The notes under the pieces are model-generated. The model ran no database searches. It was not told the DNA's origin and saw only the letters and a program-made list of their open reading frames with translations. 21,121 nucleotides of DNA, from IMG/VR virus record IMGVR_UViG_3300042562_001126, positions 1 through 21,121 of that record, one strand, 5' to 3'. Every line of letters starts with the position of its first letter. Positions within the stretch are counted from its first letter, which is position 1. A program made the translations under genes and the position numbers. This document shows, in pieces, positions 3,524 through 18,801 of this stretch. This DNA comes from a virus.

Positions 3524-3531
3524 TATTTATA
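3524..3531 (+). promoter_or_regulatory. TATTTATA element upstream of the tail-fibre gene
   Basis: The octamer TATTTATA at 3524-3531 lies 18 bases before the ATG at 3550 in an 82-base A/T-rich gap. The same octamer occurs at 15575-15582 and 18791-18798, in each case just upstream of a gene start. It resembles the T4-type late promoter -10 (TATAAATA) only loosely. It may be a late promoter read by the gp55-like sigma encoded here, or simply an A/T-rich initiation region. Confidence 0.3.
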
Positions 3532-4806: not shown

Positions 4807-5898
4807 ATGGCGTATGATTCAATCCCAATTCACGGCAATCCGAATCGAGGAGTTTTCGGAGTCGTTGGTGAAAGAATGTCATCGGACATTGGCGCGGCTT
4901 TCATAAAAATTAGCGCAGACACACTGAATGTTGGATGGACTATTGTTGGGTCTTCGTCTTTTGAGGTTACTCCCACACCATCGGTGACCCCGTATTTAAC
5001 GCCGACCGTGACGCCAACCATAACGAACACGCCGACCGTGACGCCAACCAAAACGAACACGCCGACAAAAACTCCCACGGTAACGCCAACCCCAAGCATC
5101 ACTCCAACACACACCACTACGCCGTCGATTACACCAACTCTCACCGTTACTCCAACGGTTACTACAACGATTGGGTGGATTCCTACACCAACCCCCACGC
5201 CAATAACATATTATACATTATACACTACGTCGTCGGTTGCTTCTTATGGTCCGTCGGGAGAAGTTCCGAGCAGTTCCATCGTGCTGAGTCCACCGGGTGG
5301 GGTATACGCGTCTGGCACCGTGGTGACATTGTACGTCCTGCCAAATTTAAATTCGAGCGCGTCCTTATATAAAGACGGAGTTTTATTTGGTACATCGAAC
5401 ACTCTCATCACCACGACAGTGCCAATGCACTCCGATCACACAGCCAGTGTTGTGGTTGGCTGGCGAGACGTTCAGTGGCAAGTTGCAGCAAACCCGGTGG
5501 TGGGTGGATCTCCGTATGGCCCAAGCGGGCTCACGTCTGGTTACGCAAAAATGGGAGAAGTTATTACTATAACCGCGAACCCAACCGATTCGACGTTTGT
5601 TAGTTGGTCATATAGCAACTCTGTTCCCACGACTCCGACGAGCGCGACGACGGAAGTAACTCTCTCGGTGGACTCCACGAATCAATTCACCGCAAATTAT
5701 TCTCTAAATACTTATATTATCACCGCGAAGTACAGCGGAACCACCGGAACGTCTAGTTTTACATATTATGATTCCGCGGGGAACATCCAGACATATTATG
5801 GCACCGGCGTGCTGGGTGGCACCGTGGTCCCAGATCATTGTGGCAGGTTTGTTAGCCTATTGGCGGGCACGGCGGACCAAACAATATATCAATGTTAA
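4807..5898 (+). CDS. Tail adhesin with Thr-Pro-rich mucin-like stalk and InlB-like repeats
   Basis: The protein has 363 residues in four visible parts. Residues 1-52 are a conserved head ('NRGVFGVVGER', 'DIGAAFIK', 'NVGW') like that of phage tail accessory proteins. Residues ~53-135 are a Thr/Pro-rich stalk of TPT-V/S/K-TPT units. Residues ~140-310 are beta domains resembling divergent InlB B-repeats ('GEVITITANPTDSTFVSWS', 'QFTANYS'). A short C-terminal piece follows. The only two cysteines in the protein lie in the last 19 residues, which suggests a terminal disulfide or metal site. The stalk is the obvious candidate substrate for the glycosyltransferase operon that starts 65 bases downstream. 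The gene ends in TAA, without a clear terminator. Confidence 0.78.
   Translation: MAYDSIPIHGNPNRGVFGVVGERMSSDIGAAFIKISADTLNVGWTIVGSSSFEVTPTPSVTPYLTPTVTPTITNTPTVTPTKTNTPTKTPTVTPTPSITPTHTTTPSITPTLTVTPTVTTTIGWIPTPTPTPITYYTLYTTSSVASYGPSGEVPSSSIVLSPPGGVYASGTVVTLYVLPNLNSSASLYKDGVLFGTSNTLITTTVPMHSDHTASVVVGWRDVQWQVAANPVVGGSPYGPSGLTSGYAKMGEVITITANPTDSTFVSWSYSNSVPTTPTSATTEVTLSVDSTNQFTANYSLNTYIITAKYSGTTGTSSFTYYDSAGNIQTYYGTGVLGGTVVPDHCGRFVSLLAGTADQTIYQC
4999..5066 (+). repeat. 30-bp tandem repeat in the Thr-Pro stalk
   Basis: Two adjacent 30-bp units, 4999-5028 and 5029-5058, begin with the same 22 bases and differ at a single base (t versus a) in the following eight. A partial third copy starts at 5059. 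Each unit encodes ten residues of the form TPTVTPTxTN. The near-identity at DNA level shows recent unit duplication, so stalk length is likely variable between related phages. Confidence 0.8.
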
Positions 5899-11685: not shown

Positions 11686-12305
11686 ACATAGAAATTACAA
11701 AGCAAGTAAACTTGGACCAAAACGACGGTCTATCGTCCGTTTTCGGGCTAGCTGCGCAACAACATCACGATGTTTATCAGGTGTTCTACGACTTTATACA
11801 GGACACGAAACCGGCGAGAATATTGGAAATTGGCACGGCACTTGGTGGGTTCACTCAATTTTTAAAGCGGTGTACAAGCGATTTACAATTGAATACTGAT
11901 ATACGTTCTTATGACATTCACAGAATGAATTGGTATAAAGATATTATAGCGGAGGGCGTCGACGTGCGTGTGGAGAATATATTTAACGCCGACTACTCGG
12001 AATGTTTTCCAGAAGTAGTGGAATATATAAAATCGCCGGGACTCACGGTTGTGTTATGCGATGGTGGAGACAAAATTAGAGAGTTTAGATTACTTTCCAA
12101 GCACATTAAATCGGGAGACATTATCATGGCACACGATTATGCCGAGTCGGTAGAAGTATTCAACTCTACAATAAAAGGAACGCGTTGGAACTGGTGTGAG
12201 ATTACCGCAGGTGACATAGAACAGAGCGCGGGCGAAAATAGTCTTCTATATTATAGCAAGCAGAAATTCGAAAATGTGGTCTGGACTTGCAGAATAAAAT
12301 TATGA
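11676..12305 (+). CDS. Class I SAM-dependent methyltransferase
   Basis: The protein has 209 residues (ATG at 11676). An in-frame ATG at 11682 would make a 4-base ATGA overlap of the kind repeated throughout this operon, so either start is possible. ILEIGTALGGFTQFL at 49-63 is motif I of Rossmann methyltransferases (SAM-binding glycine loop). 'VVLCDGGDKIREF' and 'SGDIIMAHDY' correspond to motifs III-IV. The layout resembles the Methyltransf_24/cephalosporin-hydroxylase type that methylates sugars or small molecules. The likely role is O-methylation of a sugar made by this operon. It overlaps the next gene by 4 bases. Confidence 0.75.
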   Translation: MAMNIEITKQVNLDQNDGLSSVFGLAAQQHHDVYQVFYDFIQDTKPARILEIGTALGGFTQFLKRCTSDLQLNTDIRSYDIHRMNWYKDIIAEGVDVRVENIFNADYSECFPEVVEYIKSPGLTVVLCDGGDKIREFRLLSKHIKSGDIIMAHDYAESVEVFNSTIKGTRWNWCEITAGDIEQSAGENSLLYYSKQKFENVVWTCRIKL

Positions 12306-14698
12306 CAAATGCCGATCTAGTAATGCGACAAAAAGATCTTCCCGTCGACGGAAGCATTATAAGTTACGAACAAAAACGAGAATTATCACTTGCGTTAGAC
12401 GCGGTATTAAGTAAAAACGTAGACGGCGAGGTAGTAGAGCTTGGTTGTTATGTTGGAGAATCCAGTAAAATATTACGTCGGACGCTCGACATAACCAAAT
12501 CAGATAAGCGACTACATGTGTATGACTCGTTCGAGGGATTGCCCCCGCTACATGATTGCGAAAAAAATTGTGGGTGGAAGCCGGGTACATTGAATACTAC
12601 AGAAGATGTGCTCGTCAAAAATTTCCAAAGAAACGGACTAGAACCCCCGATCATTTGTAAAGGGTGGTTCAAGGATATACCAGACGACAAGCTTCCACAG
12701 CAAATTTGTTTCGCCTTTTTGGACGGAGATTTCTATGATTCTATTTACGACAGCTTAATAAAAATTTATGACCGGGTAGTTAACGGTGGAATTGTGTTAT
12801 TTCACGATTATGGGAGAGCAGACCTACCGGGAGTAGAAACCGCCGTAAAAAATTTCTTCGAATCGAGGAATATAAAAATTAATCCAAAGAAGCATTGCGA
12901 GCAACTGTGGTCTATTACAAAAGGCACAGAAAACGCAGAACACGAAAAAATCGAAGTAATTAAGGTAGAAGAAGTTAAAAATATTATAAGTACATCACAA
13001 TCTATGCATAGCACTACACTAGTCACCGGCTTATTTGATTTGAAGCGCGGAGAATTGGACACCGGATTCAAGCGTCCATTTTCTCAATATCTCATGCATT
13101 TTGAGCGGCTACTAAAGGCGTGCAAGGATACTCCAATGCTGGTTTACGTAGACAAGGAGCATGAACAGTTTGTGTTAAAAGCGCGGGAAGGATCGGTCGG
13201 CACAGACATTCGATTCAGAACCGCCGAAGAATTTAAAACGTGGTTTCCATTTTATAACAAGGTAAATGAAATAAGACAAAAACCGGAATGGTATAATCAG
13301 GCAGGGTGGCTCGCTGAATCCACACAGGCTCGCTTGGATTTATATAATCCACTCGTCATGAGCAAGATGTTTATGCTTCACGACGCGTCAATTTTTAATC
13401 CGTTTGATACTGACAATTTTTGTTGGATAGACGCCGGATTGACGCAGACAGTGCATCCGGGATATTTTAGTCACGACAAAGTAATAGAGCGACTGGACCC
13501 ACTATTACAAAAATTCTTGTTTGTTTGCTACCCGTACGAATCTAACGCGGAAATACATGGATTCACGGCGGATGCGATGAACAAATACGCCAACGCGAAA
13601 GTCAATCGGGTTGCTAGAGGCGGATTTTTCGGGGGAAGTAAAAAGGCAATATCTCAGGTCAATACTGTATATTATAGCCTGTTGAATGAAACATTGAATG
13701 CTGGTTATATGGGCACGGAAGAAAGTGTGTTCAGCCTTATTACATATTTGAATCCAGAGCTTACGAACATAGAGATGATTGACGGCAATGGATTTATTTC
13801 TACGTTCTTTGAGCGGGTAAAGAAGATGCCAATCCCGAAGAAAGAAGTATTAATTTCTAAGAGCGACGTACCAGAAGGTGCGGAATACTTTCAGAGTGAA
13901 GAAGAAGTCGCGATGAATAAAGAGGGCAAGGGCGTTTACTTATACATTACATGTTTTAACTATCCTCAACAGCTTCAAATGCTGTTGGATTCATTCGAAA
14001 AATCTAATCCGGAGCTATTGTCTCAAACTACAAAATTCTTGATTGACAACAGCGTCGATGAAACGGTTTTCCCCAAGTTTGACGAGATTGCTAAAAAGTA
14101 TGGTTTCACGGTGATTAGAAAAGGCAATCTTGGGGTGTGTGGGGCTAGGCAGTGGGCCGCGCAACACTTTCATGATAACAAAGGAAAATACATTCTTTGG
14201 TTCGAGGACGATATGTTAATGGAACCAGAAAACAAGCTATGTAAGAATGGATTGAACATGCATTGCGACAATTGGTTGGACAAATGCATTAAAATTGTCG
14301 AGGAAGAAAAATTAGATTTCTTGAAGATTTCATTTTCTGAGTTTTTTGGGGATCATCACAAGCAGTGGAGTTGGCACAATGTTCCACAGGCAGTTAAAAA
14401 TAAATACTTTCCGGACGGTAAATGTAGAATGAAATGGAAAGAGTCAGGATGTATTGATGGGTTGAGTTATTTGATCGGGCAGGTATATTACAGCAACTGG
14501 CCTAGTTGCGTGTCAAGAGCAGGGAACTGGAAGATATTTTTAGAAACTGTTTATGCTAGTCCATTTGAGCAGACAATGATGAGCGCAGCATTCCAATTGT
14601 CTATGAAAGGGCGATTGCGGTCGGCGGTTCTTATGTCGAGTTTGGTCAATCACAATCGAGTTCATCATTACGACCGGGCCATTCGTAAAGAAGTTTAA
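12302..14698 (+). CDS. Trimodular fusion: TylF-type O-methyltransferase + HtrL/YibB-type glycosyltransferase + GT2-like glycosyltransferase
   Basis: The protein has 798 residues, starting at ATG 12302 (ATGA overlap). Module 1, about 20-207, is a TylF/macrocin O-methyltransferase (PF05711), with 'VVELGCYVGESSKIL', 'VYDSFEGLPP', 'FLDGDFYDS' and 'GGIVLFHDYG'. Module 2, about 237-505, resembles the HtrL/YibB family (PF09612), with 'TLVTGLFDLKRGEL', 'WIDAGL' at 375-380 and 'GFFGGSKKAI'. Module 3, about 545-760, is a GT-A enzyme with 'VYLYITCFNYPQQLQ' and 'YILWFEDDMLM' (EDD, 635-637) as the DxD site. The three activities would methylate a sugar and add two sugars. A short linker with an acidic, charge-rich stretch (210-230) separates modules 1 and 2. 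I see no frameshift. It ends the operon. Confidence 0.75.
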   Translation: MTNADLVMRQKDLPVDGSIISYEQKRELSLALDAVLSKNVDGEVVELGCYVGESSKILRRTLDITKSDKRLHVYDSFEGLPPLHDCEKNCGWKPGTLNTTEDVLVKNFQRNGLEPPIICKGWFKDIPDDKLPQQICFAFLDGDFYDSIYDSLIKIYDRVVNGGIVLFHDYGRADLPGVETAVKNFFESRNIKINPKKHCEQLWSITKGTENAEHEKIEVIKVEEVKNIISTSQSMHSTTLVTGLFDLKRGELDTGFKRPFSQYLMHFERLLKACKDTPMLVYVDKEHEQFVLKAREGSVGTDIRFRTAEEFKTWFPFYNKVNEIRQKPEWYNQAGWLAESTQARLDLYNPLVMSKMFMLHDASIFNPFDTDNFCWIDAGLTQTVHPGYFSHDKVIERLDPLLQKFLFVCYPYESNAEIHGFTADAMNKYANAKVNRVARGGFFGGSKKAISQVNTVYYSLLNETLNAGYMGTEESVFSLITYLNPELTNIEMIDGNGFISTFFERVKKMPIPKKEVLISKSDVPEGAEYFQSEEEVAMNKEGKGVYLYITCFNYPQQLQMLLDSFEKSNPELLSQTTKFLIDNSVDETVFPKFDEIAKKYGFTVIRKGNLGVCGARQWAAQHFHDNKGKYILWFEDDMLMEPENKLCKNGLNMHCDNWLDKCIKIVEEEKLDFLKISFSEFFGDHHKQWSWHNVPQAVKNKYFPDGKCRMKWKESGCIDGLSYLIGQVYYSNWPSCVSRAGNWKIFLETVYASPFEQTMMSAAFQLSMKGRLRSAVLMSSLVNHNRVHHYDRAIRKEV

Positions 14699-14709
14699 GT
14701 TTTTATAAG

Positions 14710-14737
14710 TTGACAAACCCCGTAACACGTGTAGTGT
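14710..14737 (+). promoter_or_regulatory. Possible sigma70-like promoter before the HD-hydrolase gene
   Basis: TTGACA at 14710-14715 is followed after 16 bases by TAGTGT (14732-14737), a weak -10 with three of six matches. It lies in the 55-base gap after the glycan operon, 16 bases before the ATG at 14754. I see no intrinsic terminator for the upstream operon, so read-through is also possible. Confidence 0.35.
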
Positions 14738-14753
14738 GTTGGGACGAATTCTT

Positions 14754-15431
14754 ATGAATAAAAAGTTAAACAATGAATTAGATTTGACAGAAAAGCAAGT
14801 TCAGGAAAACTATGAATATTTTCTTGAATTTTTAAATGAAAAGTTCTCCGGTGAACGCTTGAAGGGATTGCTAACGATGTATGCCGAGGAAAACCTTGGG
14901 TTACAGTTGGCTACCGCCCCCGCGTCTGGGAAAAAGACATATCACTATGCCCATACAGGTGGATACCTTCAACACGTGATGGATGTTGAGTTGGCAAGCC
15001 GGGGAGTTCAAAAAGTTTATACCACAATCAAGGGCGAAATTGATTACACCGAGGAAGAACGCATCATGGCCGCGCTGCACCACGATCTTGGTAAGTTGGG
15101 GGATGAGACTGGTGCATATTATCTCCCTAACACGGAGCAGTGGTCTATCGACAAGCAGGGATTGATTTTCAAACACAACACAAAGGCTCAATTCTGGAAA
15201 GTCGCGGATAGGGCGCTATACAATTTACAACGGTTTGGGATCGTGTTGACTTGGAAGGAAGTATTAGCAATTAAGTTGGCAGACGGACTTTACGACGAAG
15301 CTGCCGAGTTTTATCTCAAGACGTACGACCCAGAAAAGGGACTAAAAACCAATCTTCCACGCATCATTCACGTTGCCGATTACTTGGCCTGCAACGCGGA
15401 AAACGACATTTACAAGCGCGAAAAAGTATAA
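14754..15431 (+). CDS. HD-domain metal-dependent phosphohydrolase
   Basis: The protein has 225 residues, starting at ATG 14754 (MNKKLNNELD). A GTG at 14736 is in frame but lies next to the promoter-like sequence. Metal-binding residues of the HD superfamily are visible: His74 in 'YLQHVMDVE', His110-Asp111 in 'ALHHDLGKLGD', and Asp209 in 'IIHVADYLA'. Nearby His64 and His67 may also contribute. The family hydrolyses nucleotides or phosphodiesters. Similar proteins are frequent in T4-like marine phages, but their substrate is not established. It is followed by a structured non-coding segment rather than by another gene. Confidence 0.85.
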   Translation: MNKKLNNELDLTEKQVQENYEYFLEFLNEKFSGERLKGLLTMYAEENLGLQLATAPASGKKTYHYAHTGGYLQHVMDVELASRGVQKVYTTIKGEIDYTEEERIMAALHHDLGKLGDETGAYYLPNTEQWSIDKQGLIFKHNTKAQFWKVADRALYNLQRFGIVLTWKEVLAIKLADGLYDEAAEFYLKTYDPEKGLKTNLPRIIHVADYLACNAENDIYKREKV

Positions 15432-15441
15432 ACTTCTTGAC

Positions 15442-15569
15442 AAGACTCCGGATTTATGTATCGTGGAGTCTTCTAAACGAGGATGTTTCGGCCTCATTAA
15501 ATCCCCGAAACTGGTGGAGGACGTTCAATCAAGAACAGTCCCTAACTCAGCCCCCGAAATCGGGGGCTG
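15442..15569 (+). ncRNA. Candidate structured RNA with kissing loops, ending in a terminator
   Basis: This lies between the HD-hydrolase stop (15431) and the membrane-protein start (15588). Four hairpins can be drawn. H1: 15442-15449 pairs with 15465-15472 (8 bp, AAGACTCC/GGAGTCTT). H2: 15485-15491 with 15505-15511 (7 bp, GTTTCGG/CCGAAAC). H3: 15519-15526 with 15533-15541 (8 bp with one bulged A). H4: the terminator. The H1 loop contains GGATTTA (15450-15456) and the H2 loop contains TAAATCC (15498-15504), a perfect 7-bp loop-loop match. I know of no named RNA family that fits. It may be a small RNA or a leader for the downstream gene. The 5' end is not defined. Confidence 0.5.
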
Positions 15570-15574
15570 TTTTA
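15548..15574 (+). terminator. Rho-independent terminator upstream of the membrane-protein gene
   Basis: 15548-15557 (CAGCCCCCGA) pairs with 15560-15569 (TCGGGGGCTG) around a tiny AA turn. In practice the inner pairs open to give a 4-6 nt loop. It is followed by TTTTATATTTA. The GC-rich stem is strong and ends 14 bases before the next gene. Either it terminates the HD-hydrolase transcript or it acts as an attenuator for the next gene. Confidence 0.85.
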
Positions 15575-15587
15575 TATTTATATTGAA

Positions 15588-16742
15588 ATGAACATTAAAG
15601 AGAATTTATTTCAATACATACTCGGGATTTCCGCACTCTTTGTGGCGGCGATTGCTGCTTTCTTTAGCATCGCCGGAATTGGTATGTTGTTTTCTGGTGC
15701 GTATATATCAACGGTAATTATGGCCACTTCCTTGGAAGCAGGTAAAATAGTTGCCACTTCCTTTTTATATAGATATTGGAAGAAAATTGCTAATTGGCTG
15801 CGTGTATATTTGTGCGTGGCCGTCTTTGTGCTCATGGCTATAACGTCTATGGGTATTTTTGGATGGTTAACGTCAGCATATCAGGCGTCCGCGATAGAAT
15901 ATGAAATTTCACAACAACGGACTACCGCGCTCGTTGAACAAAGAAAATTGGTGCAAACTCAAGCAGATTTAGCTAAACAGCGAATTGACTTGATGTTAAG
16001 CATACGAACTGACCAAGAAAAACGGCTGAACGAGGCACTTGGAAATCCCGTGTTATCGAGGAATCCCACCGCACTTAGACAAGTACAAGAACAGAATATA
16101 GACTTAATAAAGCGGACTGACGCCGATTTAACAGAGGAAAAGAAGAAATATTCGGATACCGTAACCGAGCTTAGTAACGCCGATAAACAAATATTAGAAT
16201 CAAAGGTTCAGACGGGAAAAACAAAGGATATAATCACGTTTAAATTCGTAGCAGACGCGTTGGGACTGGACATGCAAACCACAGTCAAATGGTTTATAAT
16301 CGTCATTATCGTCGTGTTTGACCCCCTCGCGCTGAGTCTGATCCTTGCCTATAACATTGTGTTGTATGGTGACAAGAAGGACGGGCCATTGCCTTTGAAG
16401 CCCATCGAGGTTTTGCCTGTACCGACTATCCCGGTCGAAATAGCTGTGCCCACGTCTGTAATAACACCGGTAGTTGAGGAAGTAGCCGTGCCCACGTCTG
16501 TAATAACACCGGTAGTTGAGGAAGTGAAATACGAGGCAGCGGTTTTGGCACCGGAAATTCCGGTGCCACCCGCCCCCGCTCCCGACGTGCCGCCTCCGGT
16601 CGAAGTGGCAATCGTTCAATCGACCCCGGCTGATCCAACCCCACCACCGGCCAAAGTTGATATAAAAACAATTCTTCCCGAACCCCCACGGCAATTACCG
16701 TACATGCGACCAAGCGAAGTATACAACGCACCAACGAGATAA
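15588..16742 (+). CDS. Inner-membrane phage protein with coiled coil and proline-rich tail
   Basis: The protein has 384 residues. Hydrophobic segments at about 9-31, 33-57 (weaker), 72-97 and 233-260 suggest four membrane helices. Residues ~103-205 between the third and fourth are charged and heptad-like ('QQRTTALVEQRKLVQTQADLAKQ' region), probably a coiled coil. After the last helix the ~120-residue tail is rich in Pro, Val and Glu, with a duplicated 14-residue unit. Membrane proteins with this opening ('MATSLEAGKIVATSFLYRYW' at 45-64) occur in marine T4-like phages with no established function. A role in remodelling the host membrane or in lysis control is possible but not shown. The TATTTATA element lies 5 bases upstream of the ATG. 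Confidence 0.72.
   Translation: MNIKENLFQYILGISALFVAAIAAFFSIAGIGMLFSGAYISTVIMATSLEAGKIVATSFLYRYWKKIANWLRVYLCVAVFVLMAITSMGIFGWLTSAYQASAIEYEISQQRTTALVEQRKLVQTQADLAKQRIDLMLSIRTDQEKRLNEALGNPVLSRNPTALRQVQEQNIDLIKRTDADLTEEKKKYSDTVTELSNADKQILESKVQTGKTKDIITFKFVADALGLDMQTTVKWFIIVIIVVFDPLALSLILAYNIVLYGDKKDGPLPLKPIEVLPVPTIPVEIAVPTSVITPVVEEVAVPTSVITPVVEEVKYEAAVLAPEIPVPPAPAPDVPPPVEVAIVQSTPADPTPPPAKVDIKTILPEPPRQLPYMRPSEVYNAPTR
16446..16525 (+). repeat. Two identical 38-bp direct repeats in the proline-rich tail
   Basis: The 38 bases from 16446 to 16483 recur without a mismatch at 16488-16525, so the period is 42 bp. They encode two copies of the 14-residue unit (VPTSVITPVVEEV plus a linker residue). Perfect identity, including third-codon positions, indicates a recent duplication or strand slippage. 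Copy number is probably variable. Confidence 0.9.
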
Positions 16743-16755
16743 TCTTTATTATATA

Positions 16756-16783
16756 TTGACAAATGTAAAATTAAATATATATA
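16756..16783 (+). promoter_or_regulatory. Sigma70-like promoter before peptide deformylase
   Basis: TTGACA (16756-16761) is followed after 16 bases by TATATA (16778-16783) in a strongly A/T-rich 74-base gap. The predicted start near 16790 leaves a leader of about 27 bases before the ATG at 16817. That leader contains an inverted repeat. Confidence 0.5.
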
Positions 16784-16788
16784 TGTGC

Positions 16789-16804
16789 AATTGATGATTC
16801 AATT
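16789..16804. promoter_or_regulatory. Small inverted repeat in the deformylase leader
   Basis: AATTGA (16789-16794) and TCAATT (16799-16804) are perfect inverted arms around TGAT. The repeat begins where transcription from the promoter at 16756-16783 would start. It could be an operator or a weak 5' hairpin. An A/T-only repeat of this size can also arise by chance. Confidence 0.3.
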
Positions 16805-16816
16805 ATCACATAAAAT

Positions 16817-17431
16817 ATGAGTTACAAAATTGTTAAGAATAAAGATTTCTTGCACAAAAAGACCGAACCGGTCACTTCTGTCGAAGAAGGCCAAGAAATA
16901 GCAAATAAGTTAATACAGGCTTTAGACGAATTAAAATTCGGCCTCGGCCTTTCCGCCAATCAAATAGGAATACAAAAAAGTGTATCGGTAATAAGGGTTA
17001 AAAAAGACATGCCCCCGATTATATTGATGAATCCAGTAATATCGGAGGAGAGCAACGAAAAAATAGTATATGTAGAGGGGTGTGTAAGTTTGCCCGGGAA
17101 ACAAACAAAAACAGTTCGAAGCCTGAAAATTCAAGTGTCGACTCTCAACCACGCGAATGTATTACCGTTTGGTCCCACCGCCGATCCGCTTACACAAGAC
17201 TCAATTGCCAAAGACTATGGAGTTTTAGAGTCCGTCTGCGTACAACACGAAATAGATCATTTACGTGGCGTGTTGATGATCGATGATGGAGTCAGATTCG
17301 TAGAAACTCCACTCCGGACCGTTAAACACGGCAGAAATGACAAGGTGATGGTAGAAAAAGATGGTGAAATGCAATATATAAAGTATAAGAAGGCATTGCA
17401 TTTATTGAACGAAGGGTGGAAAATTAAATGA
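16817..17431 (+). CDS. def: Peptide deformylase
   Basis: The protein has 204 residues with all three deformylase motifs intact: GLGLSANQIG at 42-51 (GxGLAAxQ-type), EGCVSLPG at 87-94 (zinc-ligand Cys89) and QHEIDHL at 143-149 (HExxH with both zinc histidines and the catalytic Glu). It removes the formyl group from nascent proteins (PF01327) and is a common auxiliary gene in marine T4-like phages. After the catalytic core a ~45-residue charged extension ('KHGRNDKVMVEKDGEMQYIK...') is unusual for phage versions, which are often minimal. It overlaps the next small gene by 4 bases (ATGA), which supports the unit 16817-17864. Confidence 0.95.
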   Translation: MSYKIVKNKDFLHKKTEPVTSVEEGQEIANKLIQALDELKFGLGLSANQIGIQKSVSVIRVKKDMPPIILMNPVISEESNEKIVYVEGCVSLPGKQTKTVRSLKIQVSTLNHANVLPFGPTADPLTQDSIAKDYGVLESVCVQHEIDHLRGVLMIDDGVRFVETPLRTVKHGRNDKVMVEKDGEMQYIKYKKALHLLNEGWKIK

Positions 17432-18773: not shown

Positions 18774-18801
18774 ATATATATTATAACGCCTATTTATAAC
18801 T

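Follow-up and report, generated by a model that had tools for sequence, protein, structure and literature searches.

A conserved, uncatalogued structured RNA that closes the chaperone gene cluster of a group of uncultured phages

The virus record IMGVR_UViG_3300042562_001126 is 21,121 bases long, and the window analyzed here covers its full length. The genes of the window include PhoH, peptide deformylase, glycosyltransferase, and methyltransferase. It was also observed that positions 12287–14698 encode an 803-aa protein combining a TylF-type methyltransferase, an HtrL/YibB domain, and a family 2 glycosyltransferase, and that positions 4807–5898 encode a 363-aa protein, probably a virion or surface protein, in which a long repeat tract is rich in Thr and Pro. 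The region of interest is bounded on the upstream side by an HD-type phosphohydrolase-like gene (14736–15431, + strand), the protein of which matched PHROG 5889 (unknown function) with an E value of 1.4e-11 and no Pfam family, and relatives of which carry the annotation phosphohydrolase. Downstream on the same strand are a gene for a membrane protein of unknown family (15588–16742) and a peptide deformylase gene (16817–17431; Pfam PF01327, E value 4.7e-27) that is syntenic with the RNA described below. The gap between the HD hydrolase stop codon at 15431 and the membrane protein start at 15588 had been described in an earlier note on this DNA as lacking a convincing gene. The open reading frame at 15373–15591 overlaps the HD gene and is unsupported.

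Between the terminator in this gap and the next start codon, there is a late-promoter-like box, TATTTATA (15575–15582, + strand). The window contains four such boxes, compared to 1.69 expected, and similar boxes are visible 5′ of the downstream gene in several homologues. The same sequence is also present at 3524–3531 and 18791–18798, shortly 5′ of start codons, and resembles T4-type late promoters; we presume a late-promoter role by analogy with the T4 late promoter.

The hairpins, stems, and terminator that the earlier note had placed in the gap are all present in the sequence, on the + strand. Hairpin H1 (15442–15472) has 8-bp arms, AAGACTCC (15442–15449) and GGAGTCTT (15465–15472), and carries GGATTTA at 15450–15456 in its loop. 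Hairpin H2 (15485–15511) has a 7-bp stem formed by GTTTCGG (15485–15491) and CCGAAAC (15505–15511), with a 13-nt loop that contains TAAATCC (15498–15504). This is followed by the linker UGGUGGAGG (15512–15520), consisting of UGG and then UGG-A-GG, and by H3 (stem-loop 15519–15541; GGAC-GUUC/GAAC-A-GUCC), which has 4 + 4 bp with a bulged A and a conserved CUAA after it (to 15545). An intrinsic terminator (15548–15573) has a 9-bp stem at 15548–15569, of which 8 bp are G-C, and then TTTT. The folding energy of 15430–15580 was −55.6 kcal/mol (z = −5.46, with none of 200 shuffled sequences as good), a value that owes much to the terminator and H1. In the predicted ensemble of a transcript beginning at about 15472, H3 formed in a fraction near 0.99 and H2 in only about half (0.56).

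Homologues were first recognized on IMG/VR contigs carrying relatives of the two flanking proteins, where the stretch proved to be conserved only in part. Four of these loci (L008–L011) keep H2, TGGTGGAGG, an H3 with different letters, CCCCTAA, and the terminator, whereas the H1 and H2 loop sequences are not kept. A scan of flanking-protein loci for TGGTGGAGG, followed by three pattern scans of viral contigs, gave a set of 26 distinct sequences, from which near-identical copies, Menderavirus sequences, and the doubtful L195 and L199 were excluded. The first viral pattern search yielded 48 stretches, comprising 29 clear members, 2 from Menderavirus, the 2 doubtful cases (L195 and L199, which are weaker candidates), and 15 chance matches that were dropped; another yielded 107 stretches, the loci of which were inspected through L347, with L348 by scan only. 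A pattern search of genomes gave 42 stretches, none of which was accepted as a member. Homologues on other phage contigs thus assembled retain H2, UGGUGGAGG, H3, CCCURA, and the terminator.

A covariance model built from nine sequences with the window left out (R1) detected the window at 35.3 bits (E value 2e-5), as well as all of the other members. A second model (R2) detected an untrained member on the contig of L098 (61.1 bits, E value 1e-13) and the L385 element (E value 6.8e-14), and it found exactly one match of at least 50 bits in 27 of 32 records, most of which were in its training set. R2 matched none of 79 loci that surround relatives of the HD and membrane proteins, and in a further 78 loci its only matches were the L385 and L380 elements, the doubtful cases L195 and L199, and an antisense site in L385 (E value 0.08). 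R2 matches were absent from T4, Microcystis phage Mel-JY01, a Flavobacterium Immutovirus, and Pelagibacter phage Mosig. Weak matches in XacN1, RAS14, and two uncultured huge phages were rejected, as they lay off the linker, and so were those in 6 of 369 genomes of one bacterial class (E values up to 1e-3), which were plain terminators without GGTGGAG. A DNA comparison of the elements of the window, L202, L182, and L217 with 50,697 phage records gave no close relatives beyond scraps with an E value of 0.5.

The earlier note had proposed that compensatory changes be sought in the hairpins and in the loop–loop pairs. Changes on both sides were found in 18 of 22 base pairs among the 26 sequences, and 97.5% of 563 cells could pair; the covariation score was 0.611, compared to 0.201 in shuffles and 0.11 or less when the partner was slid by 1–3 columns, although the alignment behind these figures had been fitted to the structure. 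The 26 members share ancestry, and so the counts are not of independent events. On a plain MAFFT alignment, RNAalifold independently predicted H3 and the terminator, with 10 pairs changed on both sides; H2, the loop of which varies in length, was not predicted there. All six modeled pairs of H2 showed both-side changes, with 98.0% of cells paired, and in a separate test, 17 of 19 distinct members had a stem of at least 6 bp ending at or within one base of UGG. For H3, both-side changes were found in five of seven modeled pairs. Covariation therefore bore out the earlier proposal strongly for H2, H3, and the terminator; the loop–loop pairs did not pass, and H1 gave a modest signal in one subgroup of eight HSP20-type sequences, as described below. 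The earlier note was right that the gap encodes a structured RNA.

The linker UGGUGGAGG was identical in all 26 aligned members, in part by construction, because the 9-mer was the search key for most of them. RNAalifold also predicts a helix between UGG-A-GG and the CCCURA that lies past H3, which includes a G-U pair and a bulged A, and this pairing is kept in 26 of 26 members; since these pairs hardly vary (the one change is U-A to U-G), covariation cannot prove them. Whether or not this pairing forms, the UGGUGGAGG/CCCURA element is under stronger constraint than the surrounding helices, which change freely by compensation, and this points to contact with a conserved partner. The linker contains GGAG, the cut site of the T4 RegB nuclease; a RegB substrate was considered and rejected, as no RegB gene (PF10715) was present in 18 phage contigs, many of them fragments, or in two Menderavirus genomes, with T4 positive as the control. 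Pairing of the H2 loop with the linker was likewise discarded, exceeding shuffles only in L175 and L276.

The ARAGORN program and the Rfam tRNA model found no tRNA or tmRNA in the window, and there were no Rfam 15 matches in it at or above the gathering threshold. A comparison of 12 RNA-bearing loci with Rfam (E values up to 1) gave only sub-threshold rimP, Phe_leader, and STnc560 matches plus tRNAs, so that here, too, the earlier note was right in finding no named family, and no published account of the RNA was recognized in a search of open-licence papers. Taken together, the comparative data show that 15485–15573 is one copy of a conserved phage RNA consisting of H2, UGGUGGAGG, H3, CCCURA, and the terminator. 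This RNA is real, conserved, and uncatalogued, and it is a new family found in a group of uncultured phages.

A σ70-type promoter is predicted at 15437–15464 on the + strand (TTGACA at 15437–15442, a 16-nt spacer, and TATCGT at 15459–15464), with a predicted start at about 15471. By consensus, this was the best promoter-like site within 14000–17000 (10 of 12 positions). Sixteen of the 26 members have TTGAC(A/C) 60–80 nt 5′ of the linker together with a −10-like hexamer (3–5 of 6 matches); the 10 members without promoter hexamers belong to the HSP70 and GroEL types and to a second HD group.

Where H1 is present, it coincides with this promoter, and it is absent from HSP70-type members. An inverted repeat as good as H1 was obtained in 15 of 200 shuffles of this stretch of the window, and H1-like repeats exceeded most shuffles in L182 and L194 but not in L175, L215, or L271. 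In the eight-sequence HSP20 subgroup, 4 of 11 H1 pairs were changed on both sides, compared to 2 in the best slid control, which indicates some selection to keep a palindrome in this subgroup, whether at the RNA or the DNA level. In this connection, we observed an 11-bp inverted repeat that overlaps the promoter upstream of the RNA in L182, L185, L186, L194, L213, L304, L317, and L385. It has a 9-nt loop, mostly CTTCATACA, and some compensatory changes, and it is either a DNA operator or an RNA hairpin.

The earlier note had taken a kissing contact between the loops of H1 and H2 as the defining feature of a compact ligand- or protein-binding RNA. The exact 7-nt complementarity of GGATTTA and TAAATCC was confirmed, with a frequency of 0.007 in shuffled loops of the same length and make-up; with the 15 of 200 shuffles for the H1 repeat, neither H1 nor the kissing match is more than moderately unusual. 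A match of 5 nt occurs in L182 and L213 (frequencies 0.042 and 0.038), whereas 9 of the 12 members that have H1 show 3 nt or less and no other member has the 7 nt of the window, and so the kissing loop is not a family feature. Furthermore, because H1 overlaps the promoter, a transcript from that promoter would be without the H1 5′ arm, and no conserved aptamer–terminator switch was found. We conclude that the kissing loop is incidental and that it and H1 lie outside the conserved RNA; a compact ligand-binding fold is likewise unsupported, and an RNA that works through H1–H2 contact is very improbable.

Each contig carried the RNA as a single copy, positioned at the 3′ boundary of a gene cluster with the order HD hydrolase–(HSP20)–(HSP70 or GroEL). 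Upstream chaperones were identified with the Pfam families HSP20, HSP70, and Cpn60, for which 10 upstream proteins were submitted. In 37 loci, which include near-identical contigs and are therefore not independent, the gene immediately upstream encoded HSP20 (18), HSP70 (8: L351, L352, L359, L174, L220, L277, L329, and L344), HD (8), GroEL (1: L360), or an unrecognized protein (2). Several loci show the order HD–HSP20–HSP70–RNA. It was observed that the chaperone genes lying after the HD hydrolase and before the RNA vary among related phages (HSP20, HSP70, or GroEL), and that HSP70 is inserted after HSP20, next to the RNA. A membrane protein or deformylase was recognized downstream in 22 of the 37 loci, and the remainder were cut or had other genes. 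In HSP70 types, the stop codon is 29–35 nt 5′ of the linker, which leaves about 10 nt between it and the start of H2; by position, the RNA of these members appears to lie at an mRNA 3′ end and to share its terminator, as 3′ UTR-derived small RNAs do.

Among cultured phages, the sole candidate carriers are in the genus Menderavirus, with the stretch present in 16 Stenotrophomonas records. H2–linker–H3 is identical in Moby, IME-SM1, and Mendera, and the sequence after H3 differs. This copy lies in a tRNA cluster between tRNA-Cys and tRNA-Lys, just 5′ of tRNA-Lys, and has no U-tract terminator. R2 scored the Menderavirus copies at 35–36.5 bits (E value about 1e-6), and given such scores for a pattern-selected stretch, the match could be due to chance. 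Because it took an exact pattern, run against a very large collection, to pick out this genus, we consider the Menderavirus stretch to be probably, but not certainly, a copy of the RNA. Its location in a tRNA cluster without a terminator fits the placement of a free-standing RNA. T4 rnaC and rnaD, which by annotation are stable RNAs of the T4 tRNA cluster, are comparable in that the Menderavirus copies also adjoin tRNA genes, but the sequence differs, and R2 matched nowhere in T4.

The function of the RNA is inferred from its position and anatomy. We favor, with a probability of roughly 0.5, a cluster-linked RNA of about 90–105 nt that comes from a 3′ UTR, its own promoter, or both and acts in trans as a regulator. 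In this reading, a stable RNA of about 90–105 nt would be released. In HSP70 types, where any promoter of its own would have to extend into the coding region, it would be the 3′ UTR of the upstream message, ended by the terminator; in HSP20 and HD types, the window included, it would arise from a promoter such as that at 15437–15464. During infection, the RNA might then work in trans as a small regulator, with the terminator hairpin and U tail possibly serving as both the 3′ end and an RNA-chaperone site and UGGUGGAGG/CCCURA at the base of H3 possibly being the contact site for a conserved partner, either protein or RNA. The position, the terminator, and the promoter fit a small RNA originating in a chaperone-cluster 3′ UTR or at its own start.

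The closest parallel is CpxQ, a 3′ UTR-derived small RNA from the cpxP mRNA (PMC9438474). CpxQ is likewise a short RNA at the 3′ end of a stress/chaperone-type mRNA that ends in the intrinsic terminator of the mRNA and starts near the stop codon; in contrast to CpxQ-type RNAs, the RNA described here is phage-borne, is conserved mainly as structure plus an invariant 9-mer, and has its own predicted promoter in some members. Any processing, Hfq binding, or targets of the phage RNA are hypothetical. The manA RNA is also a structured phage RNA near small heat-shock (Hsp20/IbpA) genes, but it has been reported 5′ of genes, whereas the present RNA is 3′ of them. The manA model RF01745 matched none of 10 records at E values up to 1, the control genomes giving no match either, and cmscan with all Rfam families listed no manA in the 12 loci. 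The L17 downstream element resembles the phage RNA in that it, too, is a 3′ UTR domain with conserved structure, but it belongs to a ribosomal protein operon of Lactobacillales and Listeria (PMC2864571).

A purely cis-acting role appears less likely, but it is the rival that deserves most weight. Here H2–H3 would join with the terminator in a specialized 3′ end that terminates or stabilizes the HD/chaperone mRNA and shields the late genes beyond it. Consistent with a cis role, the RNA always lies at the end of the cluster and is followed by genes with a late-type box, and the HSP70-type RNA begins about 10 nt past the stop codon. However, an invariant 9-mer and a covarying 5′ hairpin would be superfluous for an ordinary terminator, a promoter-like site separates the upstream gene from the RNA in 16 of 26 members, and the RNA is missing beside relatives of the downstream membrane protein (79 loci, no match). 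It is quite improbable that the terminator is opened by the sequence before it, as in a transcription attenuator or riboswitch. A structured RNA does lie directly 5′ of the terminator, and 6–7 upstream nt could pair with the terminator 5′ arm in L189, L217, and L208, but such a complement exceeded shuffles (frequency <0.05) in only 2 of 26 members, and that of the window is 3 nt. A leader peptide translated through H2 is very improbable: ATG frames following AAAGG, AAGTGG, or GAGG occur in 12 of 26 members, the window included (MFRPH; other examples are MCQPLC and MVVSGSTN, with the stop codon 4 nt 5′ of the linker), whereas the other 14 have no such frame, the peptides are unrelated between groups, and the H2 arms change by compensation.

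Partners of the linker were also considered. The first 8 nt, UGGUGGAG, are an exact 8-nt complement of the 3′ ends of Escherichia coli tRNA-Ala(UGC) and tmRNA (which may not be those of the host), and so the RNA could bind the acceptor end CUCCACCA-3′ in a T-box-like way, whereas the best linker complement in 16S, 23S, and 5S rRNA, rnpB, and two other tRNAs was 7 nt or less. Five genome matches of the first pattern that were checked with ARAGORN were antisense to tRNA-Ala genes on bacterial contigs, and the Menderavirus motif sits within a tRNA cluster. Against this, the complementarity was noticed after the fact, the tRNA-Ala of Menderavirus ends in GGUCCACCA and matches only 7 nt, and the linker may not be free, given its predicted pairing with CCCURA in 26 of 26 members. 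We therefore consider tRNA-Ala/tmRNA binding to be improbable and keep it as a speculative lead, because it was a post hoc observation and the stretch may pair inside H3. The specific proposal that a single-copy chaperone-cluster RNA uses UGGUGGAG to capture the acceptor end of the host tRNA-Ala and tmRNA is highly improbable; if it were true, the phage would control trans-translation or alanine tRNA use while overproducing and folding virion proteins. Complements of the linker in 33 phage stretches, some of them overlapping, were on the antisense strand of the element itself or scattered, and none was prominent at start codons by eye. A plain mRNA target in phage genes was rejected, as the excess of linker complements is the antisense strand of the element.

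Few structured RNAs of lytic phages are well supported, and most of those lack a known function. The clear core, strong covariation, single copy, and fixed place beside changeable chaperone genes make this a defined 90-nt RNA for knock-out and pull-down experiments, and cultured Stenotrophomonas phages contain apparent relatives. Should the RNA act in trans, phages would pair chaperone genes with a regulatory RNA, in a manner like that of bacterial CpxP and CpxQ.

Two further features were observed among the members. The sequence AAAGGTTAT lies directly 5′ of H2 in 16 of 26 members, and the window does not have a copy at 15474–15484. In addition, L202 (near position 778), L208 (near 771), and L349 (near 2523) contain a longer, second type of the RNA, with what seem to be two tandem hairpin–UGGUG units and an extra helix between them.
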